Source of the DNA: Scatophagus argus
Lineage: Eukaryota; Chordata; Actinopteri; Scatophagidae
Direction: 5' to 3'
Length of the DNA stretch: 64,000 nucleotides
NCBI RefSeq assembly: GCF_020382885.2
Contig: NC_058508.1
Coordinates: 7,804,055 to 7,868,054 of the forward strand
Shown: piece by piece, positions 7,736 to 64,000 of the stretch
Layout: each line of letters opens with the position of its first letter
Numbering within the stretch: position 1 is the stretch's first letter
Notes under the pieces: generated by a model
The model's input: only the letters and a program-made list of their open reading frames with translations
The model's database searches: none
Told to the model about the DNA's origin: nothing
Program-made: the position numbers and the translations under genes

Positions 7736-9555
7736 ATGGCAATGAGCAGCATCCTCAACGCTGATGACATCAAGAAAGCTCTAGATGCATTTGCAGGTAA
7801 AACACTTATCATGGGGGCGGCACGGTGGTGCGGCGGTTAGCACTGTTGCCTCATAGCAAGAGGGTTCCAGGTTCGAATCCCGGTCTGGGCCCTTCTTCGT
7901 GGAGTTTGCCTGTGTGGGTTTTCTCTGGGTACTCTGGCTTCCTCCCACAATACCAAAAACATGCACATTAGGTTAATTGGCTACTCTACATTGTTTTAAT
8001 TATTCAAATTTTGTTACATGAAATCATGTCTTGCCCATCATTTTGGCCTGGCACATGGCTGAAAATACTATACTACTCATGAGCCTTAGCCACTGCTGTT
8101 TATGGGAAAAAAGGAACGGTCTTCTGAAACAGCATTCCCAGCTTTGCAACTGTAGATCACTAATGAAAGAAAAACATTCAAAACATCAAAAAATGAAGTC
8201 ATGCATAAAACTATTGAATACATTTTCTTTTACAGTTTCTTCTACATGCCTGTAGTTAATGTTGGCATGTATAGAGCAGGCAGACAGGAAATGCATGGAG
8301 CTTCATGACCCAGAACTGATGGGTCCTCTGGCAAACACATGTTCTCAGTCTATAACTGTCACACTGTTAGAAGGCTACCGAACTACAATTAAATCTTTGC
8401 CTCTGGGTCTCATCTCTCAGATCAACTCAGGGAAAGCAACTTAAATTTAACTTAATGCCTCTACTGGCTGTGTGTGGGATTTCAAGCCCATTATCTTTGG
8501 AAAGAAAAATGTAAGTCTGCAATAAGTGTCAAACATCTGAGGTTAACATTTTGGAGTACTTGTAAGTAGTGACATTTTGCATCTGTGTGTGTGCAGTTGC
8601 TGACTCCTTTGACCATAAGAAGTTTTTTGAGATGGTGGGTCTGAAAGCCAAGTCTTCTGATGATGTGAAGAAAGTCTTCACTGTGTTGGACGCTGACAAC
8701 AGCGGCTTCATTGAGGAGGAGGAGCTCAAGTAAGTCACCCACTCACCAACACACACACACATACACATACACACAAACCCCAAAAGATGCAACAATTGAT
8801 GTTTCTGCACATTAAACATTAGTGTTCTGTGACATCGTTCTATTCTGCTTTTCTGTCCCTGGTCAGATTTGTCCTGAAGGGTTTCGCCAAAGATGGCAGG
8901 GACCTGACAGACAAAGAAACCAAAGCATTTTTAAAAGCAGCCGACAAGGATGGAGATGGCAAGATTGGAGTCGATGGTAAGAATCAAATTCCATTAGTGG
9001 GAGTGTCGCGAGATCGCACAAATAGAAACATAAACAGAATGTAGAACAAAAGTCACTGAAAGACACACAGGCCGTCTTCATTTATTGGTCACACACTAAG
9101 ACTGTAGCTTCACTCTAGATTCATTTTCCTACAAAATATAAAAGCAGACATGTAGTGGTCCTAATAAACCCCTGATAAAAAAAACCAAATCAGAATCAGA
9201 AAAGACTTTATTGCCATTGTAAGTGAAGAGGTTTCACATTACTAGGAATTTGTCTTGGTGATTGGTGCATACATAGACCGTAACAAGTAACATATAATAG
9301 AAGAATAAAATAAAATAAAAATAAAATAGAATAAGGTAACACCAAATAAAATAAAGTAAGTAAAATAAATATGTTTCTGGAGGTAGTCCAAAAGTGAGGT
9401 AGTGCAGGGTGGAGTATAGTGCAAGTGGGTGAGGTAAACAGTGCAAAATGAACAGCAGGTGGGTAATGACATGAGCATTACCCACCTGATAAACCTAAAA
9501 GCCTTTGTTTTTTTCTTCCTCTCTTGCAGAGTTTACTTGGCTTGTGAAAGAATAA
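7736..9555 (+). CDS. pvalb: Parvalbumin, alpha lineage (EF-hand calcium buffer), four coding exons
   Basis: Coding exons are 7736-7796, 8597-8729, 8867-8976 and 9530-9555, all with GT..AG borders, summing to 330 bases (109 residues plus stop). That is the standard parvalbumin length. The protein starts [16 protein letters not shown] and shows the degenerate AB region, a CD calcium loop ([12 protein letters not shown]) and an EF calcium loop ([12 protein letters not shown]), both with complete oxygen ligands. Parvalbumins are small cytosolic proteins that buffer calcium in fast muscle and in neurons. The Cys usual at position 18 of the beta lineage is absent (AFAVADSF here), and [13 protein letters not shown] resembles tetrapod alpha parvalbumin, so I favour the teleost alpha type (pvalb6/pvalb7 in zebrafish naming). 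The C terminus, DEFTWLVKE, carries a tryptophan, which is uncommon in the family. The start is fixed by the conserved N terminus, and a CAG at 7728-7730 just before it fits a 5' UTR intron. Intron 1 holds a SINE-like repeat and intron 3 a LINE tail. The family is certain; the paralogue name is not. Confidence 0.95.
7812..7985 (+). mobile_element. tRNA-like SINE-type repeat in parvalbumin intron 1
   Basis: Begins 'GGGGGCGGCACGGTGGTGCG' and continues to a 'GGTTCGAATCCC' segment that matches a tRNA-type B box, with a possible A-box region at 'GGTTAGCACTGTTGCC'. It ends with 'CATTAGGTTAATTGGCTACT'. This arrangement is very common in teleost genomes, where I know it as a short interspersed family. 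Assignment to SINE rather than a non-autonomous DNA element rests on the pol III-like boxes only. The borders are approximate. Confidence 0.6.
8749..8775 (+). repeat. AC microsatellite beside the parvalbumin exon 2 donor
   Basis: Interrupted (AC)n run about 20 bases downstream of the exon 2 splice donor at 8730. Confidence 0.85.
9190..9480 (-). mobile_element. LINE 3'-tail-like repeat in parvalbumin intron 3
   Basis: Read on the minus strand, the segment runs from 'TGCACTATACTCCACCCTGC' through a T-rich ATTTTATTT stretch to 'TGGCAATAAAGTC', ending in TTCTGATTCTGATT at about 9190-9205. This ending, with a short tandem repeat after an AATAAA-like motif, is typical of 3' tails of fish non-LTR retrotransposons. 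No reverse-transcriptase coding sequence remains. The family name is not assigned. Confidence 0.5.
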
Positions 9556-19200: not shown

Positions 19201-22200
19201 CCTGATGGTTTCAAATTAAATCAGGCTCTAACCAGCAGAGGGCACCCTGGTAACAAAAATATCATTACAATAATGCACTGAATTCTCCATAACACAATCT
19301 GTGTATGAAATTACTCATTTCTTGATGTAGATAAGACCCACTTCCTCCCGCTTATGTTTTCTTATCTAACATTTGTTTTATGGATTCAGGGAAATTTAGA
19401 CACTGGAGTTCTGAAACATTCAAACTCACATAGTTGTCCGGAGGAGGTGGTTGTCTGCTCTCGCGTCCTCTCGTGGCGTTCACGTCATTCATCCAGGCAT
19501 CAGCTTTCTGCTGGAGAGACCCTCCTGTCTACCACACAAACACACATAAACACACATAAATGTAAGATTTTTTTGGGGAAAAAAAATGCCATTACAGGTT
19601 AACAGAGTTAACAGTTTATGTTACAGTTAATGGTCAAGTGGCAAAATGAATTCTGATAAATGACATTCATACACATTCCCATGTGTGCTGTGAAAGATGT
19701 ATTGGGCATTCAACTATCTCATGAGTTTGACGCAAGTACTTTGATGAAGTGAGGCAGATGTGTCAAAATCTCTCAAATTAAAAAAAAAAATCAAAAATCA
19801 AAAATCTCTAAATTTTTTATCTGAACAGTTTGACTTATAGTCTCATCATTTTAACTTTTTTATCTCTTAATTTTGACTCTCCATGTGCTTCTCTGTGTTC
19901 ATCATGATTAACTCCTCACCTTTTTATTAGTTTTCTTTTGAAAATGACCTTCTATAGTTACCTGTTTCATAGCAGGCTCTGCAATAGCCTCATTGTAAAA
20001 ACTACGGTTTAGTTTCCCCTCACAATAAAAGGCGTCAGTGTGGTCATAAAGAAGTGAGCAGGGAGTCCAGAGTTCAAACAGACGGGCTGTTAGCGGGGTT
20101 GCCGTCCCTCTGAAGAAACTGAATCTTTATGTGTAGCTCTGAAGCTGTTGTCTGTCTTGTTATAAAGGAAGGGATCTTCCCTACGGGGATTAATAAAGTT
20201 TCACATAATCATTACACATTATTGTGATTCTCTGTTAGTGTGACTTCCTTTTATTGGCCTTCTGACATTCACTACCGTGAGTTGTAAAACAAACCCAACC
20301 CATTTGGCACCTGTAGTCAATAAGCCAAAACACACCATGAAATATTGAATTCACAAATGCTATTTGAGGTGAGCTGCATACCTTATTCATGAGGTGGGCG
20401 ATGGATTGTATCAGGGCACAGTGTTTCTCAGCCAGGAAGCGGTGACGTCTCTCCTCCTCCTTCAGAGCCTCATCATGGCTCTTCCTGAGGAACTGCACAT
20501 ACTCACTACCATCCTGAGGAGACACATATTTGACAGTACATAAATATGTTGTACAAGGACACATCCATATACATAGTGCTGAGTTTTCCTCCAGGGTGGA
20601 GAATGACGGGAGCACAAACCTGGTTATATCCTCTCCTAAACTGCCTCTCCAGAGCTGTCGCCAGGCTGTGGACCTCCATCTCATATTGCTTCCTGCTGCC
20701 CTGTATGACAGTATTCATGTCACGTCTTTTCCCATTCATTCTAATGGCTCCTTCAGTTTTAATCAGAATGTGTTACTTCTTTATTGTCTGGGAGTTAAGC
20801 GACCTATAAATCAATATATGAATTTATCAGATTACTCACTCCATACCTACTCCCATGATACCCCGCAGTTAATAATTTTACTTTCCATTTGGGGAAATAA
20901 TTATGATATAACAGCTTATCATTCTGTAGGAGCTCCTTTTTGACCTTGTGATGCAGGCCTTTGCTTTGGCCCTCACTCACTGATATGTAATCTTTGTCTG
21001 TTTTAATGATGTTGTCCATCTGTTGAATAACCTCCATGCTGAACCAACGAAACTGGAAAAAGACACACCAAGTCATATTAGTCATGACTGAGAAAATGGA
21101 GCACACACTTTAAGAGTGTGATCAGAATCTACAGTTGTGATGATTGTAGTGTTGATGTCACTTACGACTCCCTGAAGCTCCAGTGTGAGTCGTTTTTGGC
21201 TCTCAGAGACCTGAATCAGGACTTCTCCTTTAAGAAAATAGCATTTCATGTTTGTAAATATACATGCATACACACATACATGTACTGTATATATTACTAG
21301 AAATCAATAAAATGACATCATGCGATATTCACATGTTTCTAAACATCAACCGATGATCTAAACAGCTATCAGAATATCTCTGACTTTATTGCTCACTCTC
21401 ACTCTCTCACACTCACACACACACACACACACACACATACACACCTGCTCATGTTTGTTTAATTTCCAGGTGCAAGAATATTAATTTGTAAAGTAACAAG
21501 TAACTAAAGCTATCAGATTATTATAATGAAGTTAAAAGTACAACATTTATATTTCCCTCTGCAATGTGGTGGAGCTGAAGTATAAAGTGGCACGAAAAGT
21601 AAAGTTCCTTAAAGCACCTCATACTAACTAAGTACAGTACTTGAGTAAATGTACGTAGTTAAAGTAATTTGTTGCTTGTTTTTCAAAGTCTCAGTGTCTT
21701 AATGTTGTTATTAATGGTTTCATCCACTGCTTATTTGAATACGAATATATTAGAACTTGTTCAGTTTCCCTTATCGCTGTCCATGAAATGCATGCTGGGA
21801 TTCATTTCCTCACAGCGTTAGCACAGTAATTATCCAGTTTGGACCATATATTCAACCCCAGCCACTAAACTGAACACGACACCGTCAGAGCGGCTGGGTT
21901 AAGTGAGCGGAGCGCGGCCTGCTGCCTGTCGTCGTCTATTATTCATGTTGTCTGCTAGCGTTTGATACCCGCTCTGCCAGCACACTTGGCTTGAACTCAT
22001 GTGGAAACAGGCTCTAATAACGCACTGTTTCATAATCTAACTTTGAGCTTAACTGCTGTCATAAATGGAAACCTAATAAGACAGTTCTTCACTTGACCTG
22101 AGCCCAGTACAAATGTTAGCTCAGTATGAGCTGGGGGTGAATGTCTTTATGAGTTTCACTTTGATTCTGTAAATTTTCACGCACATCTCACACGCTTACA

Positions 22201-28578: not shown

Positions 28579-29408
28579 CCACTAGGGCCATCATTCTGTC
28601 ATCTCTGCTGCTGTAGAGCTGTTCCACAGAGAGCCTTGAGGCTGACTTATGGCCATCCGCATGCCACATCACAGTAAGGCTTGTATGTTGCTGAGCAAGG
28701 AAATATTAAGCTGAGAGGAGAGAAAAAAAACAATTTACAGATATTTAGGTATCCAGGAAATATCCAGTTTAGAACTGCATCGTTAATGAAAGCTTGAGAT
28801 TTAAAAAACAAAAAAAAAAAGATGGAAATCCCGCCTCCTTTTTGAAGCTGCATGCAGCATGGCTTTCAGCGCATGCTGCAACACCTGTATGCTGTAACAC
28901 CTGTATCTTTCATATTCGCTTATCGCCTGTCAGCATTTTAAAAGAAAACACAGATCACAGTTTCAACCTTGTTGGAAAAGTTAGCTCAAGGCTTTAAGAA
29001 GAAGAAGAAGAAGACGAAATGTACAAAGAGTGTTCTGTCAGACGGGATGGAGCGGTCTCTGTGCTCTCTCCATCTCTCTCCCTCCTTCTCTCTCCCCCTC
29101 ATTCTGCTTCAGTATTAACAGGCTGGATTTTGCCTGAATAGCGAGGACATGCGCGCTGAACGGGGGAGGAGGTGTAACACAGACTGCCTGCCTCTCATGT
29201 TTTGACTCCATGATCACTCAATTATGGTGCGGAACTCTCGTTTTCTAGTCGCCCGTTTTTGTGGACAGGGAGAAAAGTGAACAGGTGATTTTTTCCGTCC
29301 ATTCAGACAATAAACATTTTGACACTTTTCTTGTTTTTGGTACGTTTAGTTTCTTGCGGAGTTAAGAGTGTTATTCATAGATTTTTTTTAGAAGAATCGT
29401 TCGCCCCC

Positions 29409-29420
29409 GCCGCCACCCTG
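29409..29420 (+). promoter_or_regulatory. nptxr: Non-AUG (CTG) translation start of nptxr in an ideal Kozak context
   Basis: GCCGCCACC (29409-29417) immediately precedes CTG (29418-29420), followed by AAG TTC. In this frame there is a TGA at 29286-29288 and no ATG between it and the CTG. The first in-frame ATG (29451-29453) falls inside the membrane anchor. Rodent NPTXR is known to initiate at CUG, at the codon aligned with this one. Confidence 0.85.
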
Positions 29421-32400
29421 AAGTTCATTGTTATTATCTTGGCCGCCGGAATGGTGGCCTTCATCGGAGCGGTTATCTGCATCATCGCAGCCGTCCACAC
29501 CGGATCCTCCAGAGCTGCCGCGGCGCAACACCAACCAGCAACCGACAACCACTCGGTGTATCCGGACTCTGCAGCGCAGACCCCCGCTGCAGGGGGCTCC
29601 GTGGCCCGGGCCGGATCGTTGGGAGCTCTCCATGGTTCTGAAACGCCCGATTCAGAAGCACCAACCTTCAACGTCGGGCTCGGCGGGCTGGACGGAGTCA
29701 CTGGACTCACTGGACATGACCCAACCGTCAGTCGACTCATCTGCACGCCGATCCCCGCGGGGGAGTGCAACCCGAAAAACTTTCAGCAACAAGCGGAAGA
29801 CCCGTCGCTGTACGCGGGGGAAGATTGGGGCTACCTCCGCACCACCGCGGAGGAGCTCCGGCAGACAGTCCTGCAGCAGAAGGACCAGATATTAACAGAC
29901 CAGCGGACCATCAGAGAGCTGACGGGGAAACTGTCCGAGTGCGAGAAGGGGCTGGACGGCAGGAGCAGCAACGCCGACAGACGTGGGAGCGCCGCTGGGC
30001 TGTTGGGAGGAAAAAGCACCGACGAAGGGACCCACCTGGAGAGGATCATGGTGCGGGACAGTCCGGCTTCGACGCCCGACAGTGTCCACTTGCTCACCGT
30101 CAGGGCTGTGGATGAACTGGAGCAGGCTATCACTCAGCTCAAAGACCGCATAGAGAAGCTGGAGGTATGTACGTAGTGAGTGGAGACATAATTTCAGACA
30201 TCCGCATTTTTGCATGCGAAACTATACGTGAGAAAGAATCAGAATGAGGTGTATGTGAAAGGTCTGCCTGCTGTAAGATGAACCAAGAATGGTGTTTCAT
30301 GCTCTGGTATCAGCTTTCAATATCAGTATTCCATAACTCCAGCTCTAGTTACATTTTGCTGTAATTGTAATAATCGAACTTGACATTCATGGTTATATTT
30401 GTCTCTTTTTTTACTCTGTTGTCCTTTTTAGGATTTCTGGGCACGCATTAGTGGTTTACGAAAGCAAGGGTGCTCAATTTTGAATGAGAAGTGAGGTGTT
30501 TAAAAGGCTTTTTGTCTGGTACTAGATACTGGCAGCCAGATTTAGTAAACAAAGATCAAGTAGAGCATTTCACTCATTGGTAAGCATTTAAAAACTTTAG
30601 AAGATGCTTCTTCTTTTTGTCTGCATACTAAAAACATAATCAACTAACCGAATCAGTTTGAAAATCACAATGATGTTAATTGCTGATAACATCAACATCT
30701 CGTGATTTTGTATAATCACAACTTGTCATCTGTTCATCTCTGGTCTAGGCTGCTAATTTCTCATGCCAAGAAAACAGAATGAAGTTTTAAAATTAGAGAA
30801 AAGGCAGAGATGAAAAGTGAGGCAGGGGAAACTGAGAGAAACACTGGGGGAGGGGAGATGAGGATAAAGATAAGGTGGGGAGAAGAAAAAGGAGGAGGAG
30901 TGTATGGAGCCGAGTAACATGAAGCATGCCTTTATCTGACCAGAATCCGATGATGTATAACCTCATTTTTGGCTGAAGAAATACCATACATAATTTATGA
31001 CTTGCCTAGATTTGCTGAAAGGACCGACTAAACATGCTTCTCTGCAGTGTAGTACTTCTCTCTTGGTGGGTTTATGTAGGGCATGTCTGGATGGGTCATT
31101 TTCCACTTTCCTTTTGTCCTTTCCTTTTTTAAGATCCGAATGGATTTCAAAGGTCTCGGGGTGATGTGTAGTTAAACCTCGAACATAATACTGTAGCCAG
31201 TGTTTTTCTCACCCCCACATCTTGGTTACCATCCAAGTCACGTTTCTGTGTACAGCAGGTACTGGCCTACTTGAGCACATTGTGTTGTGTTTACATCAGA
31301 TCCCGTTGTTCAAGCGGAGCATTCATCGGGGTATACTAGTCAGGTCAAACAGCTGTGTTAAATTCCTTACCTGCACATCCTTCTTCTTTCACATGGATTA
31401 CTCATATGAGTGTTTGGCTAATGCAGTTGGAAATGGACGCAGGCACTGTAATGGTTTTCTATTTCCAGCATACGTACCGATACTCTTTATACTAGTGCCA
31501 TCAATTTAAGCAGGTGAAAAACCAAGGCAAACTAAAAATTGACCAGAAGATGGCACTAGGAGATGGGCACAATGTTCTGTACCAAATTCGGAGGCCATCA
31601 ATCTAACAATGTTTCAACATTTCCAGAGTCTGACCCATTACACAGGATAATAAGTGGACAGCAAACTTCCATGTCTGAAAAGTTAAGCTAATGCAAAAGA
31701 GCCTTAAACTTGAATTCTTTCTCATGGCTGGGCCAGACAAGGCTGTGTGAGCATTGCAAGTGCATGACAGAACCTCTTGCTTTTCATTTTGGAGCCCATG
31801 TTAACAGGTGAGAACAATCACACAGCCTGCTGAAGTCTTTAGGTTAAAGTCTTCTTCACTACAGCATGGGTTTATTAAATGAATGGTCTCATTTAGAGTA
31901 AAACCAAAGATAGATCTGGCTATGCTTTAGGGTCTGGGTCGCCTTGTGACTGAAAAAGCTCTGAGTTCTTAGTCAGATCCAATGTCAGGTAGCAATGAGC
32001 ATCCTCCCCAGCTCTTGTGATAACTTCTGGCTCCAAGAAAACCAAAATGGCAACGGCCGTAATGCCAAACTCCAGGCTTCAAAATCAATGGATGAAGTCA
32101 CTGTGTCTCCATCAACTATTTATTATGAAGTCTCTGTCAAAACCACAAGTATCAACACCTTGGTGATACTCAAAGGAAAGTCAGGGGATCACCAAGTCAT
32201 TAGGATCCATCATCTGGGAACCATGAATGTGCATACAAATAGATATTTCACCATAAGGGAGACAGTTGATATGCTGTTAGCACCACATGACCGAAGTCTT
32301 TTCTATTCATCCCTTTCGCAACATGAGTATTTCTAAAATTTCATGGCAATCTATCTGTTACTTGCTGAGAATGGACCAACGAACATGCTGACAACATGTG

Positions 32401-35400
32401 GTTAATGGAAATAGGCACACTGATTGTCAAGTTACTGTGAGGTATAAACATTTCAGGACATAAGCAGGTTAAGGATGCCTTTACCACATTTTAGGATATT
32501 GAAGATGTTGTTTTCTCTAGAAAATGTTTGACATATGCACATGTAAAGACCTGCCTTGCAGCTTAACCCCAGGCTTGATAACAGAACTGTCAAGTACATT
32601 TGGGAGTACATCACGATCATGCCCAGACTAACAGGAATGTTTTTGAGTCGACTCCGCATTAACATACACACGGTTTACCAAGATGCATCAAGCAAGGCAG
32701 TCAATAGCAAGGTGCCCTTAATAGCTATTATTTTTCAACTATGACAGCAAGTGTGTTTGTGCTTGAAGATAATGGAATATTACAACTTTCCAACGGAGGA
32801 ATTTCACAAGACTGACAAAAGACTGTGTTGTTGTTTTTACCATAAATATATCCACAGATACGAGTGTTTGTTGGGATAGAGTGATAAGTCTGCTGGAAAC
32901 CATACATGTTAAATCAGATGAGGATGACACCGAAAAACTGCAACGCATTCTTTTGCTCTTTGAAGTACGACTTACAGTAACTGATTTCCTCTGTAGCATA
33001 TGTTATCATCGCTGTCACGTTTTCACCCCAGCTGTAAGAAGTAATTACTTTCTGCTACAGCCTTAGGTCATCTGTATCATCTGGCACAATATAGATAAAC
33101 ACACACTGTACACACTTATGTACAGTATGTGTGTGTGTGTATTTTCTGTATCATTTCTGTCATGATGTCTATGTATTGAAACAATATGCTTGCCAGTTGT
33201 ACAGGACCACGCAGATCTTTTCAGTGTGTATATCCCACTTCCCTTCCCTGTGATGTGTGTTTTTATTTCAGTGAAACATTATGCAGCAAAGCCTGGCAAT
33301 TTGTTGTTGACTGAAATAGCTTGTTCTCTTGGCAGCCTTTTTCTGACTTGCAATTATTTGTTGTGTTATACTAAATTGAAAACAAAACAACAAAAAAAAT
33401 CCCTGTAGACATGAGATGGCTGAGCCTAAAGAAGAGCTGTTCATATCCAAAACGTCATGAATTATACTTGGAAAGAGACATTTTGGTCATCCTCTCTGTG
33501 TTATTCACTACAAGGGCTTACCCAGATTTAGTCATGCCACACATTTTTATAGAAATTCCAGAACAAACACAATGAAAACATGGCAAATTTGACACATAAA
33601 GCCCAGATTATGACAAAATAAATCCAAAGTAATGTCGCCAAAGTAACTGTGCTAAGTTTTGAAATTCAATATAAAGGAAAAGAAAACAGTTTCAAGGAAA
33701 AGTTTGTCATGTATGGAAATATGCAAAAAACAAACAAACCAAAAAACCCCCACATACATTTCATGGTTTGTGGTTTTATGGGAGGTTGTGTGCAAGACTA
33801 TTTCTTGGCCTGGTGCAGGCTTTTAGTTTGCCAGTTACCTTAAAAAGGAACACTGAACTGTTTTAAGGACTGAACTGATTTTGACTGCAGCACAGTGAAA
33901 CATTATTAAATCGCGTATCATGTAACATTCCAGCAAAATTAATTATTAATTAGGTCAAATAACTTCTCCTTGGATAGACATGCTGAGACTGAGATCATCT
34001 TGAGAGTTGCTGCTATAACTACAGTGTAGTTTTTCATAAAGTAGTAAATGCTCAATATTACCTCTGTGCTCAACAGTAATGTTCTTAAACGGTAAAACCC
34101 ACACTTTGAACCAGTTTCCATCCACCGTCTCCCTCCTCTGCAGTCAGACATTGGCCCATTCCCTCACAACCAGACGGACAGCAACACCTCAGGAGTGCCA
34201 GAGGAAGGCGGGATGTCTGGCAGCCCAGAAGGGTTGGCTGATCGTGGGCCCAGAGCTGGTGCTGACAGGCCCTGGAGGATGGAAGACTTTGAGGGGGAGC
34301 TAGAAAGGAAGGTGGAGCTGCTGGACAGAGAGAGAAAAGCCCTGAGGCTGGCAACAGAGAAACACAGACAGGAAATTGACCGGGGCATCAATAAACTACA
34401 CCACCGAATCTCAGGACTGGAAGTAGGTAGGTATTAACATAGAGGAAATTAAGAAAGAAAGAATAAGAATGTGTGTTTGTATGTGGGTACATTTTAATGT
34501 ATGAATGGAAAATATAATGAGAGGCTTTCATTAATCATTTGCATGATGACTCCTGTCACTGTCATGAGAAATAATCAGCCATAAAACGTTACCCCAGATG
34601 TTTCATTTTTGTATTAATCTTAATCAAATCAAGCCATGGGGTTTCTTTGTGATGAATAAATTATATTGAACTTATGTAAAAGAAAAAATGATCAGAAAGA
34701 CTAAGAAATCCATGCCCTGCTTCAAAAAGAAAAAAAGAAAAAAACTGATGTTTTGATGTGGAGAAAGAATGTGCGTATGTTGCCAGATCACTGTAGATCA
34801 CTAAGTTCTCCTCGCTATCTCTGTCACTTCTGTTGTTTACATATTCATGCTCTTTATCTGCCTTTCCTCAGGTATCTCAGGCCATTCTTTCCCAGAGGGT
34901 TACAGACTTTCCTTCCCAACTCGGACAAACTACATGTACGCTGTTGTGAAGCACTCCATCCCGATGCTGCGGGCCTTCACAGTCTGCCTGTGGTTGCGAC
35001 CAGCGGAGGGAGGAATCGGGACACCTCTGTCTTATGCTGTTCCTGCACAACCCAATGAACTGGTGCTGCTGCAAGGTCTGCACACTCCCGCTGAGCTGCT
35101 CATAAATGACAAGGTACTGTATCAGTCAAGCCGCATATGCTATTTATCCGAATTGATTTGTCTACTGCTTGGGTGCAACTGATTTTTCCCAAGGAGGTTT
35201 ACTTAATAGTTTACAGGTCCTATTTCAAAGCATTTACTGATTAGAGTCTTAACATGTATTATTAACTTGACACAAAACCTTAACACAAGCCATTCAGCGA
35301 ACATTATTAAGTACAAGTTCTGCAGAAATTAAATAAGACAAGATGTTAAAAGCCATGTATGCGATTAAAATAAAATTTTAAGAGATTGACATTTGGATTA

Positions 35401-37534
35401 CGTTCATATTTGTAATTACTGTAATTATTGAATATTGTCAGTCATGGTGCAATATAAATAACATACTGGCACCATGTGTGGTTCAATATGTCAACTCTTC
35501 CACTTCTGCCAGCTGCTCCGCTTTAGGGGTCACCACAGCAGATCATCTGCTGCCATCTGAAAGCCACAGATAAAAAAGCCAAAAGATAAAGACATGTAGC
35601 ATGTGCATTTTTTGTTTTCATTTTCATTATTACTTTTGGATTTATTTAATGTGTTATGTGTATTATATGTGGAATCCCTCTCGCCACTTAAATATATATT
35701 TTAATATACAAATGTGATTCTTCAATCTCAATAAGCTTGTGTTAATGATGCAACACGCATGTAGAATTTTGTTAATAAAATGTAAAAGGGAAGGCTGAGA
35801 AATTTGGTTTGTTCTACTGAATTCATGTGCTCACAAAATATTTCAAAAGATTTCCTTCTACAGTATTTAATTGCCTTTTTTAATGAAGACATCAAGGATA
35901 TTATGAAGAAGTTGTATCTCAAACACAACGTGCTAACTTTTATGTAAGTGAAGTAGGTCACTGTGACTGGATCCAAGAGTCTGCAGCACTAATCTGGGAT
36001 AGATATAATGTATACAAGACTTGATGGCAACCAGTGTATAACTCTCATATAATTTATTATCACAATAATATCACCCTAGAAGAATTTCACTATTGCTTTC
36101 TGCAAAGCTTGCTCACTTTCTCATATTCTACCACTTGTATATAAAAAGCATTAAAATCATGAACAGAATTTATAATGTCTGTTACAGAGGAAATAGTCCA
36201 TTATATTAGCATACAAATAAGCAGAACCTCTCAAATGAAAGAGGCAATTTAGCAGACAAGCTAAATAGCCTCATTCATGTGTTTAAACCACCTTGACAAC
36301 AATGCAGGGTCGTGTAGTGGAGTGCAGTGGCTTCAGATATAATTCACTGAAGTCATTATGGTAATCGATGCCTGGAGGAAAAGTTCTGTGCCCTTGGAGG
36401 TAGCAGAATGTCTTTGGGACAAAGGAAATACTGCATAACGGCCAAGTTTTGTACCTTGGAGACTTGAGAGACAAATGAGATGTTGGAGGGGAAGTCAATA
36501 CAAACATCTGCCACATCTGAATTGCCCTTTTGCTTTTCCATTCCCAGGTGGCGCAGCTGCCGCTAAACCTCTCCAGAGGCAGCTGGCAACACATCTGTGT
36601 GAGCTGGAGCCAGAAGGGAGGAGCCTGGCAGGCCTATCAGGGTGGAAAGCTGAGGGGCGAGGGTCATGCACTGGCAGCCGGTCATCACATCAGACCTGAA
36701 GGAGTGCTCGTGCTGGGCCAGGAACAGGTAAATGCATGAATGAGGATGTGAAAGAATGAAGTTTTAACTGATCAGAGGCAGGTAAGCCTTGATGGTTTCT
36801 CCAGAAGAAATCTAATTTCATATATACATTAGACTTCTGCTGACTACAGCACTGCTAATAGTAGTTTACCCACTGCAACTGTAGGTCTACTCACGTATTG
36901 ACTTCTCCAACAGTAGTAAATAACAGTAGCAAATGAAAGCATGTAACACTTTGAGAGCCTTCGTGCAAGTAGACACAGTAAATCTACAAATTTGCTTGGT
37001 GTGAAGTATGTTTCTAGCCAAAGTGTTGAAGCAATGTGCTGTGTTTCAGAGGTGGGTGGATAAGGTGTGTGTGTTTGTGCATAATAGTTATAAGCAACCC
37101 TTCAAATATGCCGTCTTTGTTCTGTAGTCCTGCATTCACAAGAAGGGTTGATCACACCTTCTCCATCTCAACAAAGGTCTGAAAGTCAACAGCACTGCAG
37201 CAAAGCTGAGCCTGTCCGTGTATGACAGAGATGCTTTTGTCTTCAAGCACCTTGCTCCTTTCCTCTCTGTAATCCATCTAACTCCATTCATCTTGGTCTC
37301 TAGGATTCCCTGGGTGGAGGGTTTGACTCATCCCAGGCCCTGGTTGGAGAGTTGTCCCAGGTGGGTCTTTGGGATAGGGTCCTGTCTTCAAGCCAGGTGG
37401 CCAGCTTGGCCCGCTGTGGCAAAGTAACCCATGGCAGTGTGGCCCCCTGGACCGAGAATGGAGTTGAGGTTTATGGTGGAGCAACCAAGGACCCAGGAGA
37501 GCCTTGTAGTAAACACAACAGAAGCTCTCAATGA
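29418..37534 (+). CDS. nptxr: Neuronal pentraxin receptor, five exons, CTG start
   Basis: Exons are 29418-30164, 34144-34426, 34872-35113, 36548-36727 and 37304-37534. They sum to 1683 bases (560 residues) with matching phases. The protein is a type II membrane protein. Residues 2-25 form the signal anchor (KFIVIILAAGMVAFIGAVI) and are nearly identical to mammalian NPTXR. A low-complexity stalk and coiled coils follow at about 138-180 (RTIRELTGKLSECE), 228-249 and 298-343. A pentraxin domain spans about 351-556 with TNYMYAVV, ELLINDKVAQLPL, the HICVSW signature near 439, GVLVLGQEQDSLGG and VEVYGGATK. NPTXR assembles with NPTX1/2 and clusters AMPA receptors at synapses. NHS, NQT, NTS and NLS sequons are visible. 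It is longer than human (500), mainly in the stalk. Exon 2 ends in a tandem GTAG donor, and only the middle site keeps frame with exon 3. The match to NPTXR over NPTX1/2 rests on the membrane anchor and the RTIRELTGKL block. Confidence 0.95.
32160..32400 (-). repeat. Interspersed repeat fragment in nptxr intron 1
   Basis: Its reverse complement contains 'GGATCCTAATGACTTGGTGA' after 'ACATTCATGGTTCCCAGATG'. It aligns by eye with 53030-53075 on the plus strand (ACGTTCACGGTGCACAGAGG then ATGAATCCTAATGACTTCGC). The two loci are therefore diverged copies of one family in opposite orientation. From memory it is abundant in percomorph fish. Confidence 0.6.
33745..33840 (+). repeat. Interspersed repeat fragment in nptxr intron 1
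   Basis: 'GTGGTTTTATGGGAGGTTGT' followed by GACTATTTCTTGGCCTGG matches, from memory, a high-copy percomorph repeat. A weaker relative of the same segment lies at about 40470-40515 (CTTTTATGGGACTATATTTA). It sits about 300 bases before exon 2. Confidence 0.5.
34423..34434 (+). promoter_or_regulatory. nptxr: Tandem GTAG splice donors at the end of nptxr exon 2
   Basis: The sequence GAAGTAGGTAGGTATT offers GT donors at 34423, 34427 and 34431, spaced four bases apart. Exon 3 begins at 34872 and needs a one-base overhang, which only the donor at 34427 supplies (reading L-E-V-G-I-S-G). Use of either neighbour would shift the frame by four bases. Confidence 0.7.
35505..35565 (+). repeat. Short interspersed repeat remnant in nptxr intron 3
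   Basis: 'TTTAGGGGTCACCACAGCAG' followed by ATCATCTGCTGCCATCT resembles a common fish repeat core, recognised from memory only. About 60 bases remain. Confidence 0.35.
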
Positions 37535-56600: not shown

Positions 56601-59600
56601 CAGCTACAGGCTGATTTTTTGTGACTATGTCAACCATTTTCTTTCATCTATAACACTCACCACAATGTAAATATCTTTAAACATTTGAACTCAGATTAAT
56701 TTTTCTTTAATCAAAGTTCTAAACACCTTATACATAAATATGTGAGGATTCAATGTTTATCTCAGGATTTTTATCTTTTGAATTATTTACTGGACAAGCA
56801 TGGTTTGCAGCAACCAAAGTAATCTCCTCCTCTGAATGTGTGGAACCTTAACGCTGAACCTGGTCAAAGAACACATGCTTTGATTTAACTCATTCACTCT
56901 GCCCAGTTGTTTGAAGTGTGGGAGTGGTGGCTTGTGCTTTTTTAGATGAAAGAATCCAAAAGGGCTTTGGTTAATGAGACAAAGCTGCAAACAAGCCTTT
57001 GATACACTGAGTGTTTTCTTACGTGTTGTATTGGTAAATTTGCTGGATATAGTTTTTTCGGGTCTTAGGGCTGTAATGTATGAAACGGAGGGTCCAGTGG
57101 CAGCTGGTGGTTTAACTAACAGTCTAATAGGCCACCGTGTGGAGAAACAGGTGTATTGCTACCCATGCACATAGTACCAGTGCAGCACTACTGTAATGGT
57201 AGTGTATGCAATGATTTTGTTCATCTATTAGTACAATTAATGCACACTTCATATTCACTCTGATCACATATTTCAGTTCAGAAGACAGGAGGCACCCAGC
57301 TCAAGCTCGTCATGTCGTTTCCAAACTACGGACAAGCTCTGCTGAAACCCATGAAGTAAGACACAGAAATGACTGACTGATGACAGTGCTTGTGTTGCTC
57401 CAGTCCGCTTACGCTAACTCCCAAATCACAACTGGAGGTCACTTTATTTAGTATGTAAATCAGCATACAGGCTCGCGCACTCATTTTTCAGTGTTTTCCC
57501 AGACAATCCAGAGATGCAGAGACAGACGAAAACCTCTTCTATTTCTCCGACTTTGAACGACACAATGCAGAGATTGCTGCCTTTCACCTTGACAGGTAGA
57601 GAATCTGTCACATTGTGTCAGCAGGCAGTAACAGTTCTGCTGGGTAGACAGACTTGTCTGTAGCCATCAGGTCAAAGTCCAGCACTAGTGTGATCCAGCT
57701 CTTGCTGATGCTCTCTGTTTCTTTTGTTAATATTTGTGTGTGTGTATGTGTCTGCGTCAGATTGTTGGGCTTTAACAGGGTCCCTCCAGTGGTTGGCCGA
57801 CTCATCAATGTCACCACAGAGATCAGAGAGATCACCACTGACCGCAGGCTTTCCAGGACCTTCTTCACTTCCCCCGGTATGTGTGACTGTCAGTGTGTAT
57901 CCATCCCCCCACACACACCTGCACTTCCACATAGCAAAACTTAGTTACACCAAGCATTAGAACGTACGAACTGCCTGACTGCTAAACAGAAGCTGTCGTC
58001 TCTCTGACTCCTGCTAGCGGGGAACGAGTGTTTCTATGGCCAGTGTGAGTACTACTGTTCAACAGAGCATCCAGTGTGTGGTCAGCCACATGCACTGGAG
58101 GTTTCCCTGGCCGCCATGCTTCCTGACCTCAGCCTAGCCCCCCGCAGGTCCTGGAGGTCACCATGGAGACGTTCCTACAGCCGCACCAAGCTGGCACAGT
58201 GGGTATACCATCTGTCTTTTATTGATATTTTGTTTACAAGTATCAGAACTGCAAAAAATAATGTATGTATAATATGTATACACTTGGTAGTGGGATCATT
58301 TTTTGTTTTAAATGTTTTATTTTGATGGTTTAAACTAAAAGTGTTTGTTGCTGCTGGAGCTTACACTTGAGATGAGTGTATGAATCACGGGTCTTCACTG
58401 CCCTCCAGTGGTGTGAGTGCAGCATTGCAACACAACAATGTTACCAACAGATGAGTTAATGTGTAATCAATACTGATGTCAATAAACCTTATTAGTGTGG
58501 TTATTTAGGAGCCAATTTCAGCCACTTGGAGAACCATGGGGATATTTTTAACAATGATGTGGACACATTTTCCCTCCTAGTTTGATTTCCAGGCCTGTAC
58601 CGGTAAGTACACTATATAGACAAAAGTATCCACACATATCTCTTTATGGGGCTGTTTTTCAGCGGTTGTGCTTGGCTCCTTACCTCCAGTGAAGGGAAAT
58701 CTTAATGCTTCAGCACACCAACACATTGTGGACAAAGCTATGCTTTCAACTTTGTGACAACAGTTTGGGAAGGTCCTTTTCTATTCCAGCATGACTGTGC
58801 CCCAGTGCACAAAGCAAAGTCCACAAAGACAAGGCTGGATGAGTCTAGTGTGGAAGAACTTGACTGGCCCACACAGAACCCTGACCTCAACCCCATCCAA
58901 CACCTTTGGGATGAACTGGAACAGAGATTGTGAGCCAAACCTTTTGGTCCAACATCAGTGTCTGACCTCACATTTCCCACAGAAACACTTCAGAATCTTG
59001 TGGAAAGTCTTCCCAGAAGAGTGGAAGCTGGTTTTGCTGCTAAGCTGTGTATTTAGAATACAATGCCATTAAAGTCCCTGCTGGTGTAATGGTCAGGTGC
59101 CCCAATACTTTTGTCTATATAGTGTATCCGGTTTCTTCTACTTTGTACTGTTGTTCCCAGGTGGGAGAAGGACCCGGCATACTGTGACACAGTGAAACAG
59201 ACGCCTCCTTACAACCATGGCACCAGACTGGTGGATCTCATAGACATGGCTGTACTGGACTTCCTCATGAGTCAGTCTCTCTGTATTTTAAAGTCACCCC
59301 TGTAGTCAATAGATTTACAACAAAAGGAGGCTTACAGACAGTCTCTTTTTAAGAGAGGAGGGTAAAACACTGAAAATATGTCACTGATAAGTGAATTTCA
59401 AACCGCAAATTACAAAATTAGTAAATAAGAATATTATCTAACGTATTGATGCACGATGGCATTATAGCACATTATTAACTTTATGTCTTCTTTTCATTTC
59501 TACAAAAATGTCTCTCACAAAGTCAAAATAAACATGAATGTTTTCACTCAAAGGCAACATGGACAGACACCACTATGAGACGTTTGACAAATTTGGCAAT

Positions 59601-60312
59601 GAGACATTTCTGCTGCATTTGGACAACGGTCGAGGGTGAGTAGCAACTTCTGCTGACTCATTTCAGCTCAGGCAGTTGTAACAACTCATGTCTAGAAGTC
59701 AGCTACTCTCTACTCTTATTTACAGGACTTTCTTGTGACTATCTCATCTCATGTTTTCCAGGTTTGGGCGTCATTCTCGGGATGAGCCGTCTATACTAGC
59801 TCCTTTGCAACAATGCTGCAGGTAAAACAAAACAAAAAAAAATATTAGCTCAATGAGTGACACACTTTAAAAGATATATGGGTGACATAAATTTTAAATT
59901 GTTTTTGTTCTTCAAGAGTGGATGAAGCTGCAAGCTGTACTACAGAAAACAATCAATTCAGTAAATATTGCTGTGTGTATTAAAGGACCCAGAGAGGTTA
60001 AGGAAACATGTGTTACTGTGGCTTTTGATCATGCTTTCCATCCACATATGTAGGATCCGTCGCTCCACCCTCCTCCGCCTGCGCCTCTTGTCGCTCCCTC
60101 ACTTCTGTCTGAGTGATGTCATGCGGGAATCGCTGGCCCAGGATCCTCTGGCAGGCATGGCCCCCCTCCTCTCTGAAACACACCTCTCTGCTCTGGACAG
60201 ACGCCTTGCAACTGTCCTGCAGGTGGTGCAGACCTGTCAGCAACACCACAAAGATGTCATTTACAATGACTTGGAGGAATATGATGAGGACAGTGACAAA
60301 CAACCTGACTGA
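53652..60312 (+). CDS. fam20cl: FAM20C-type secretory-pathway (Golgi) protein kinase, ten coding exons
   Basis: Exons are 53652-54181, 54966-55144, 57277-57355, 57503-57595, 57761-57876, 58018-58198, 59161-59270, 59554-59635, 59762-59821 and 60054-60312. They sum to 1689 bases (562 residues). A hydrophobic type II anchor spans about 12-37, followed by a Ser-rich luminal stem and an acidic E-rich stretch around 160-177. The kinase domain follows. Against human FAM20C with a constant offset of 25, K246, K260, E281 (in FERHN), D433 (in NMDRHHYE) and D453 (in HLDNGRGFG) occupy the ATP- and metal-binding positions. The cysteines in [10 protein letters not shown] and QQCC are also present. FAM20A, the pseudokinase relative, has Q at the FERHN glutamate, so this copy is predicted active. 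FAM20C phosphorylates S-x-E sites in secreted proteins, including biomineralisation factors. The start ATG follows a splice-acceptor-like CAG, so it probably opens the second exon. Teleosts carry FAM20C duplicates; the symbol for this copy is a best guess. Confidence 0.93.
54230..54700 (+). repeat. TTAGCATG-rich interspersed repeat in kinase intron 1
   Basis: Contains 'TTTCTTCTAGCACCACCATG', several TGCTAACATGCTAA-type blocks, 'GATGTTAGCATTTAGCTCAA' and CACTGAGCACCTAGCATG. The CTAGCACCA segment resembles the one at 53090-53105, so this may be a second piece of the same family. Very common in percomorph genomes from memory. Confidence 0.5.
55154..55177 (+). repeat. GT microsatellite at the kinase exon 2 donor
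   Basis: A (GT)12 run starting nine bases after the exon 2 splice donor at 55145. Confidence 0.9.
58610..59124 (+). mobile_element. Non-autonomous Tc1-like element with intact terminal inverted repeats
   Basis: The left end CACTATATAGACAAAAGTAT (58610-58629) is the reverse complement, over at least 20 bases, of the right end at 59105-59124. Both ends are flanked by TA (58608-58609 and 59125-59126), the Tc1/mariner target. The 515-base body keeps a fragment of the transposase C terminus on the plus strand, with [27 protein letters not shown], a stop, then further recognisable residues up to [10 protein letters not shown]. The catalytic N-terminal part is missing, so it cannot move by itself. 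It sits in intron 6 of the kinase gene, in the same orientation as the gene. Confidence 0.92.
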
Positions 60313-61830: not shown

Positions 61831-62212
61831 CCTTATCCTGGGTGGAGACTGGCGCTCTGTGATGTAACTGAGTCTAACCACTCTTAGCTGCATTGCTTGG
61901 AGGATGCAGCCAATCACCTTGATGACCCCTGCTGCCACTGACCGGAACTGCAAATTGTCAAAAGGAGGGAAAAAAAAAGTTTCACTTTCCAAACGTCACC
62001 GAAAGGAGGAACAGAGAGAGCATTTGTGGGCATATCCACAAGAGACGCTTTGATCTTTGAATGCAAAGACCTGTTTTACAATCCACCACTTCCGGTAAAC
62101 TAATGATTTCTAGATTGTTTTTTTACATATTTAATGTAAGATCTATTTGGAGCGTTTCGGCCTGGTGTTGTCTTGCAGAGAAGTGAGGCTAAGCGGCTGC
62201 AGCTGACCAACA

Positions 62213-64000
62213 ATGGACCCGCTGGATTTCCTGGAGCCTGACGAACTGCTTCGCTTTTTCCATTGCAATAAGACAGAAATGTCTTGCATGGAGAAGCCGC
62301 ACACCTTTATCACCCAGCTCAGGGACCACAACCTGATTCCAGAGGACAGATTCAAGGTGAGACACTGGACACTCGCTTGGTGTTACCTCCTCCTCCTCCT
62401 CAGGTGCTGTGTGGATGAAATGCGCGCTGCTGCGGGAGCGGAAATGCGTAGACAACAACATAGATTTCATTACAGGCGTGTCTCTCTGCAGCGTTTGCTA
62501 TAACTGCACTGGTTCGTGAAACAAACAAACAAACTGTAAGTGAATATGTTATTATTTAGACGCAAAGTAGTCATTTAAGAAGTCTCTATTAAGAGCTATT
62601 GGGAGGGAAGCCTTGGTTAGTAAAATACTAAACCCGGAATAACTGATTCGTTTGGCTGCTTGGGGGCATCATAAACAAACTGTTCTGATTTAGCAACGAG
62701 GGCTAAAATAATGAAGTTTGGGGATAGAAAACAAAAGTGATGAAACCTTTTAAAGTTCTGCAAAGATGACGAGCTGCAGCATCTGTTGATATTTTCTTTG
62801 CCACTCCTTTCACATGACATGCAGTCATCTTAATCAGTCAATCACACAGTGCAGTGTTCAAGAGGTGAGCAAGCAGGAAACTGAACTGATGAAACTGATG
62901 TCTTTGAAACATACTGTTGCACACACACATCACTGTTGAACTAATCATGACGCAGTTTATTGTGCTGTAGATTTTATTCCATACTTTTGTGCGTGTGCAG
63001 AAGATCAGTCGCATGAAGAGTAAAGAGAACCTGAAGAAGGCTCTGTATGAGCTTCTGGACTGGTTTGAGACGCAGCGAGCAGAGCACATCAAAGTGTTCT
63101 GGGGGTCTGTCTTCAAGGAGACCATCTTGAGCCATTACTCTACCCTGCGGCTGCTGCGCAACAGCCTCATGGACGGTCAGAGTCTCTTTTTTTATGGTCA
63201 TCGGTGTGTTAACGGTTGTGATTCTGCTTTCTGTCTTAAGGTTCTCTGTTCTTATGATTCATGTTTTATTCATGCTTCACGATTAATGTTTGTAATGCAT
63301 GCTCTAGGACAAAATTAATGGAAACAGAAAGAATATGAAAAACTAATAAAGTATTCCAAAGTGATTCAGTTTAATAAATCCTTGCAAGCAAAGTCTCATA
63401 TTCTCAACTTTTAAAATCAGCAGCACTGCAAAACAGCGTGGCTGTTCGCAAGTCAGCTCTCACATTAGTCGTGAAGAAATGATGGTTGACCCCAATCAGT
63501 ATGGAGTACGTTGCATTCAGACTAAATTTGCAAGGCCAAACGAAAAAAGAAATGCAGCGACCCCGCAGCAAAAAGTCAAAACAGAAGCAGCTTTTGCAGA
63601 AACACAACCCACAGCCTTAGAGCCTCGCCTTAGAGCTTTGGTCACGTCAGGTGTCCAAGTCTGGGAGCTCTTTGGGTCCTTCTTTCTCTGCGGCTGTGCA
63701 GCTGGCATGACATGCAGTAGCACAGTCAGTGGTTGTCCTGTAGAAATTTAGCAGCAGTTTCAATGTGCGCTGGGCCTCTTTCAGCTTCCTGAAGAAGAAG
63801 AGGTTTAGGTCCAGCTGTTTTGACTGCTGTTTTATTAATGCAACTGCAGGGTCTTTCCATTTTCGCTCACAACTGCCCGAAAAAGTGGACGAGGAAGAGA
63901 CAGACAAAGGGAAAAGGAAGGAGCTTTCAGAGGAGGAGGGTGAAGAGCAGAAGAAAGGAAAATGGGTGAAAAAGAAGAAAAACCAGAGAAGCAGAAGTGT
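62213..64000 (+). CDS. HSR-domain nuclear protein (AIRE/SP100/SP140-like), N-terminal part, cut by the window edge
   Basis: Three exons are visible: 62213-62356, 63001-63175 and 63850 to the window end, with matching phases. The first two encode an HSR (SP100/AIRE-type) helical domain: FLEPDELLRFFHCNKTEMSC, HTFITQLRDHNLIPEDRFKK, ALYELLDWFETQ and VFWGSVFKETILSHYSTLRL. This domain mediates self-association in AIRE and in the SP100/SP110/SP140 nuclear-body proteins. Exon 3 turns acidic and then strongly basic (EEEGEEQKKGKWVKKKKNQR), fitting a nuclear localisation signal. In this family SAND, PHD or bromodomains usually follow, but they would lie beyond the window. The ATG has a good context (CAACAATGG) and begins the conserved domain. 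I cannot tell AIRE from SP140-like from this part; MDPLDFLEP is unlike AIRE N termini I know, so SP140-like is favoured. Confidence 0.8.
63640..63840 (-). mobile_element. LINE fragment inside intron 2 of the HSR gene
   Basis: On the minus strand the peptide LNLFFFRKLKEAQRTLKLLL, followed by NFYRTTTDCATACHASCTAA, resembles the C-terminal reverse-transcriptase block (LYFLRKLK...FYR...TVWYGNCT) of fish L2/Rex1-like LINEs. It is degraded and ends within about 10 bases of exon 3 (63850), so its 5' end supplies or abuts the acceptor region. Confidence 0.55.

Follow-up and report, generated by a model that had tools for sequence, protein, structure and literature searches.

The window analysed here, a 64,000-nucleotide stretch of Scatophagus argus DNA, includes what is very probably an orthologue of nptxr whose membrane-anchored product starts at a CUG codon located at nucleotides 29418-29420 (coordinates are those of the window, and the nptxr features lie on the plus strand). 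In the proximal leader a scanning ribosome would encounter no AUG; we propose that it initiates at the CUG because the context upstream of this codon is near-optimal. The initiator would presumably be methionine, and the predicted product is a type II membrane long pentraxin that begins with M-K-F and carries a 24-residue apolar signal anchor. We infer the transcription start and the membrane topology, and likewise that this animal uses the CUG and that the start has been conserved since the common ancestor of fish and mammals. CUG initiation of nptxr had been put forward in the first-pass annotation of this DNA, and it is well supported by the context, the reading frame, the integrity of the anchor, and the CUG printed for human, mouse, and rat.

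Context and reading frame of the CUG codon

The nptxr frame is closed upstream by a TGA at nucleotides 29286-29288. The first ATG after this stop codon, located at 29451-29453, is in the nptxr frame, and a scan of the genomic sequence found no ATG in any frame between 29224 and 29451. The frame scan thus bears out the first-pass annotation, which had the TGA at 29286 followed by no in-frame ATG before 29451. In the unspliced genomic frame there is no in-frame AUG between the stop and a near-cognate codon with a good context, the arrangement looked for in a non-AUG start. The CTG is directly preceded by GCCGCCACC (29409-29417), which has A at −3 and agrees at 9 of 9 positions with what we take to be the vertebrate initiation consensus; codon 2 is AAG. 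The description of this context as a perfect Kozak sequence holds for the nine upstream bases and does not extend to position +4, where an A stands. Nine in-frame near-cognate codons are found from the TGA through the CTG inclusive, and the other eight score between 0 and 3 out of 9. The G+C content at third codon positions is 0.40 in the 43 codons located 5′ of the CTG versus 0.67 in the 43 codons located 3′.

To place this score, every CTG of the window, plus and minus strands together, was scored (n = 2,845): 21 score 6/9, none scores 7 or 8, and the one at 29418, which scores 9/9, is the sole CTG above 6/9. Among the 2,703 ATGs used for comparison the best is a single one with a context of 8/9. 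Chance occurrence was estimated with 5,000 dinucleotide shuffles of each of three local stretches. A near-cognate codon with a 9/9 context in any frame appeared in 1 of the 5,000 shuffles of 29280-29450, in 2 of those of 29370-29500, and in 6 of those of 29390-30164, while the fractions with at least 7/9 were 0.021, 0.048, and 0.287, respectively. When the 12-base string composed of the context and the CTG was searched allowing up to 2 mismatches, 3 occurrences were found against 1.06 expected, a number equalled in 4 of 100 shuffles; the only exact copy among them is that at 29409-29420. The ATG-free stretch that precedes the CTG is mildly unusual and represents a modest signal: 30 of the 1,451 plus-strand CTGs have at least 194 nucleotides since the last ATG.

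The nptxr gene

The predicted gene consists of five exons: the coding part of exon 1 (29418-30164, 249 codons), exon 2 (34144-34426), exon 3 (34872-35113), exon 4 (36548-36727), and the coding part of exon 5 including the stop codon (37304-37534). The splice sites are predictions chosen by frame and homology. Translated from the CTG the model is open, encodes 560 residues, and has only GT-AG introns, whose sizes range from 445 to 3,979 bases; introns this small are in keeping with a fish genome. The predicted protein matches the Pfam family Pentaxin (PF00354) with an E value of 1.6e-30. NPTX1 and NPTX2 likewise have a pentraxin domain and are the nearest solved structures (neuronal pentraxin-2, E 2e-73, and neuronal pentraxin-1, E 5.3e-72); the 14 solved-structure matches include no NPTXR chain. 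We assign the gene to NPTXR rather than to NPTX1 or NPTX2 because of the N-terminal anchor and because residues 2-26 agree at 18 of 25 positions, counted by hand, with what we take to be the human NPTXR sequence. NPTX1 and NPTX2, on the other hand, are reported to be secreted proteins with signal peptides (PMC8866268). Human NPTXR, NPTX1, and NPTX2 each have five exons and four introns (PMC8866268), and the five-exon layout is therefore not discriminating. A SlyX match in Pfam (E 5.3e-05 and 4.5e-05), below the curated cut-off both times, was set aside as coiled-coil similarity. A pattern search of prokaryote contigs (198 matches) and viral contigs (60 matches) showed no relative, a result that is uninformative for vertebrates, and phage records had no match, which likewise says nothing on vertebrates.

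The N-terminal anchor and the AUG at 29451

Translation from the CTG would yield the initiator residue, a lysine, and then 24 apolar residues that extend from residue 3 to residue 26 (29424-29495), the putative N-terminal anchor. The ATG at 29451 falls within this predicted apolar run, in agreement with the first-pass annotation, which had placed it inside the membrane anchor. Translation from this ATG would leave an apolar run of only 15 residues including the methionine and would remove the lysine that precedes the anchor. The best 19-residue sum on a biological hydrophobicity scale changes from −3.71 with the CTG start to +1.46 with the start at 29451. The separation is weaker on the Kyte-Doolittle scale, where the best 19 residues average 3.0 and 2.08, respectively. 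Judged from the translated sequence, only translation from the CTG yields the apolar anchor in full. Human NPTXR is reported as a type II membrane protein of 500 residues with a membrane segment at residues 7-29 and glycosylation at Asn42 (PMC8866268). In the fish protein counted from the CTG, the corresponding register is an apolar segment at 3-26 and a first N-x-S/T sequon, located by hand, at residue 44.

These properties bear on whether the AUG at 29451 is instead the main start, as an automated gene model might give, with the CUG contributing little. The context of the AUG is good (GCCGCCGGA-ATG-G), with G at both −3 and +4 and upstream agreement at 6 of 9 positions. A review describes apparent leakiness even for the most efficient non-AUG starts (PMC9082881), and the short form retains a Kyte-Doolittle mean of 2.08 for its best 19 residues. 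Some initiation at this AUG is therefore to be expected, given its context and that leakiness. As the main start, however, it would produce a protein with the shortened apolar run, the 19-residue sum of +1.46, and no lysine before the anchor, whereas the human protein is reported with the membrane segment given above, and we regard it as highly improbable. A gene model beginning at 29451 would truncate the anchor.

A combination of the two starts can also be envisaged, in which the CUG would specify the full signal anchor and hence the membrane form, and leaky scanning to the AUG 33 nucleotides further on would generate a secreted NPTXR, the pair acting as a conserved topology switch. The 15-residue apolar segment would then act as a cleavable signal peptide, without shedding by a protease. 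Selection to keep both codons would in that case explain why the CUG persists though it is one base away from AUG. TACE cleavage is the reported source of soluble NPTXR (PMC8866268, PMC12799932), so that a second route to the secreted protein is not needed, and we consider such a switch unlikely.

RNA folding predicts a hairpin of 7 pairs at 29441-29459, with part of the AUG at 29451 in its loop (z −1.9, a weak lead). It has −14.2 kcal/mol in a 41-nucleotide stretch, for which 9 of 200 shuffles were as good, and 15 of 200 shuffles folded as well as the 83-nucleotide stretch that starts at the CUG. For the 121-nucleotide stretch around the CUG, 51 of 200 shuffles were as good (z −0.57), and the minimum-energy fold of this stretch pairs the Kozak region instead of forming the hairpin, which the centroid structure retains. 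The leader sequence 29300-29420 is no more structured than its shuffles, 176 of 200 being as good. POLGARF has a CUG start that a stem loop on its 3′ side stimulates (PMC9082881), and the nptxr CUG also precedes a predicted stem loop; the optimum distance given in that review is 14-16 nucleotides, whereas the nptxr stem starts 20 nucleotides after the CUG, outside that range. As it is weak by the shuffles and lies 20 nucleotides from the CUG, the hairpin was dropped as a candidate initiation enhancer.

The region upstream of the CUG

An upstream spliced exon could supply an in-frame AUG, in which case the CTG would encode an internal leucine and the first exon of the model would begin at an acceptor such as that at 29391. 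Three acceptor-like AGs, ending at 29306, 29349, and 29391, are present between the TGA and the CTG; the same acceptor test is passed by 203 of the 4,298 plus-strand AGs. A scan for ATG exons of up to 900 bases in the 20 kb upstream, combined with the three acceptors, detected 19 hypothetical in-frame exons with donors of at least 7/9 (8, 8, and 3 by acceptor), of which only one has a donor of 8/9 and none of 9/9. Since the four donors of nptxr itself score 6 to 8, a comparable range, the 19 candidates neither support nor exclude splicing. In mouse, Npcd is reported to be a read-through product of Cbx6 and Nptxr (PMC3658946), so that in a mammal this kind of product is on record alongside the CUG form. 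For a cbx6-type upstream exon, six-frame searches of the whole window with regular expressions, run with no positive control, found no chromodomain or Polycomb-box motif. If the CTG were an internal codon, its 9/9 initiation context would have to be coincidental, and CUG is the start listed for NPTXR in mammals (PMC2396638). Splicing of an upstream AUG exon to nptxr appears quite unlikely, and initiation at the CUG is the reading that we retain.

An upstream open reading frame of 18 codons is found in another frame at 29224-29280. The context of its AUG is good, with A at −3 together with G at +4, and its stop codon (29278-29280) closes it before the CUG. This AUG would precede the CUG in the mRNA only if transcription starts further upstream. 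The locations printed for the mammalian NPTXR CUG are 155 in human, 126 in mouse, and 115 in rat (PMC2396638, Table 1); if these numbers are leader lengths, a comparable leader would begin here near 29263-29303, which is 3′ of the AUG at 29224.

Comparison with mammalian NPTXR and other non-AUG starts

Table 1 of PMC2396638, a compilation of non-AUG starts in mammals whose entries are presented as validated RefSeq records, gives CUG as the start codon of NPTXR in human, mouse, and rat, citing Dodds 1997. The use of CUG by rodent NPTXR, which the first-pass annotation had asserted, is therefore found in print for mouse and rat. Mammalian NPTXR (NPR) and the gene described here share the long pentraxin structure, the putative N-terminal anchor, the five coding exons, and, as proposed here, the CUG start; the difference is that this gene belongs to a fish and that its context and frame were read from DNA alone. 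The nptxr CUG is probably a start of a type already known in mammals that is here extended to another vertebrate. The further suggestion that this start is ancient and selected is likely, judging from the present sequence together with the printed mammalian cases. If fish and mammals have the CUG in common, it would represent a non-AUG start of a main protein kept over much of vertebrate history, in a synapse organiser whose membrane-bound amount could be set by a start that is weak and open to regulation.

Only a single sequence was examined here, and its CTG is one base away from GCCGCCACCATG, so that the CTG might be attributed to faulty assembly or to a rare allele at a codon that is otherwise ATG. 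An independent error is not expected to reproduce the CUG with which the mammalian orthologues are listed, and this explanation is extremely improbable. Among the best-ranked matches of a literature search whose scope left out most subscription papers, there was no report of a CUG start in fish nptxr. PMC11088998 and PMC10454262 mention both NPTXR and CUG and, in the portions available, neither is about the NPTXR start codon. Two works on mammalian non-AUG initiation, PMC9082881 and PMC9789052, name neither NPTXR nor pentraxin in their main text.

Human STIM2 (UUG) and TRPV6 (ACG) are reported to have a non-AUG codon as their only start (PMC9789052), so that the main protein has a non-AUG start as proposed here for nptxr; they differ in being other genes with other codons, without a link to pentraxins. 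Another near-cognate start conserved in vertebrates, also in a membrane protein, adds an N-terminal extension 5′ of a conventional start, whereas the CUG-started form of nptxr would be the reference protein. CACNG8 is an AMPA-receptor partner. Like NPTXR, it is also listed with a CUG start in Table 1 of PMC2396638.

Other features of the window

On the minus strand, the frame at 20238-20714 has a weak match to the IMD (IRSp53/MIM) domain (E 0.0018, below the cut-off) and looks baiap2l2-type; baiap2l2 is presumably close to NPTXR on human 22q13. A second frame beside it (20807-21109) had no domain match. The region 8823-9041 shows EF-hand matches below the cut-off (best E 0.00032) and is parvalbumin-like by eye. 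Towards the end of the window, a Fam20C C-terminal kinase domain is found at 59965-60309 (E 5.6e-18), and an HSR domain is found in two pieces at 62207-62500 (E 3.5e-07) and 62971-63315 (E 1.7e-05). By eye, a frame at 58706-58933 is similar to the C-terminal portion of a Tc1-type transposase.
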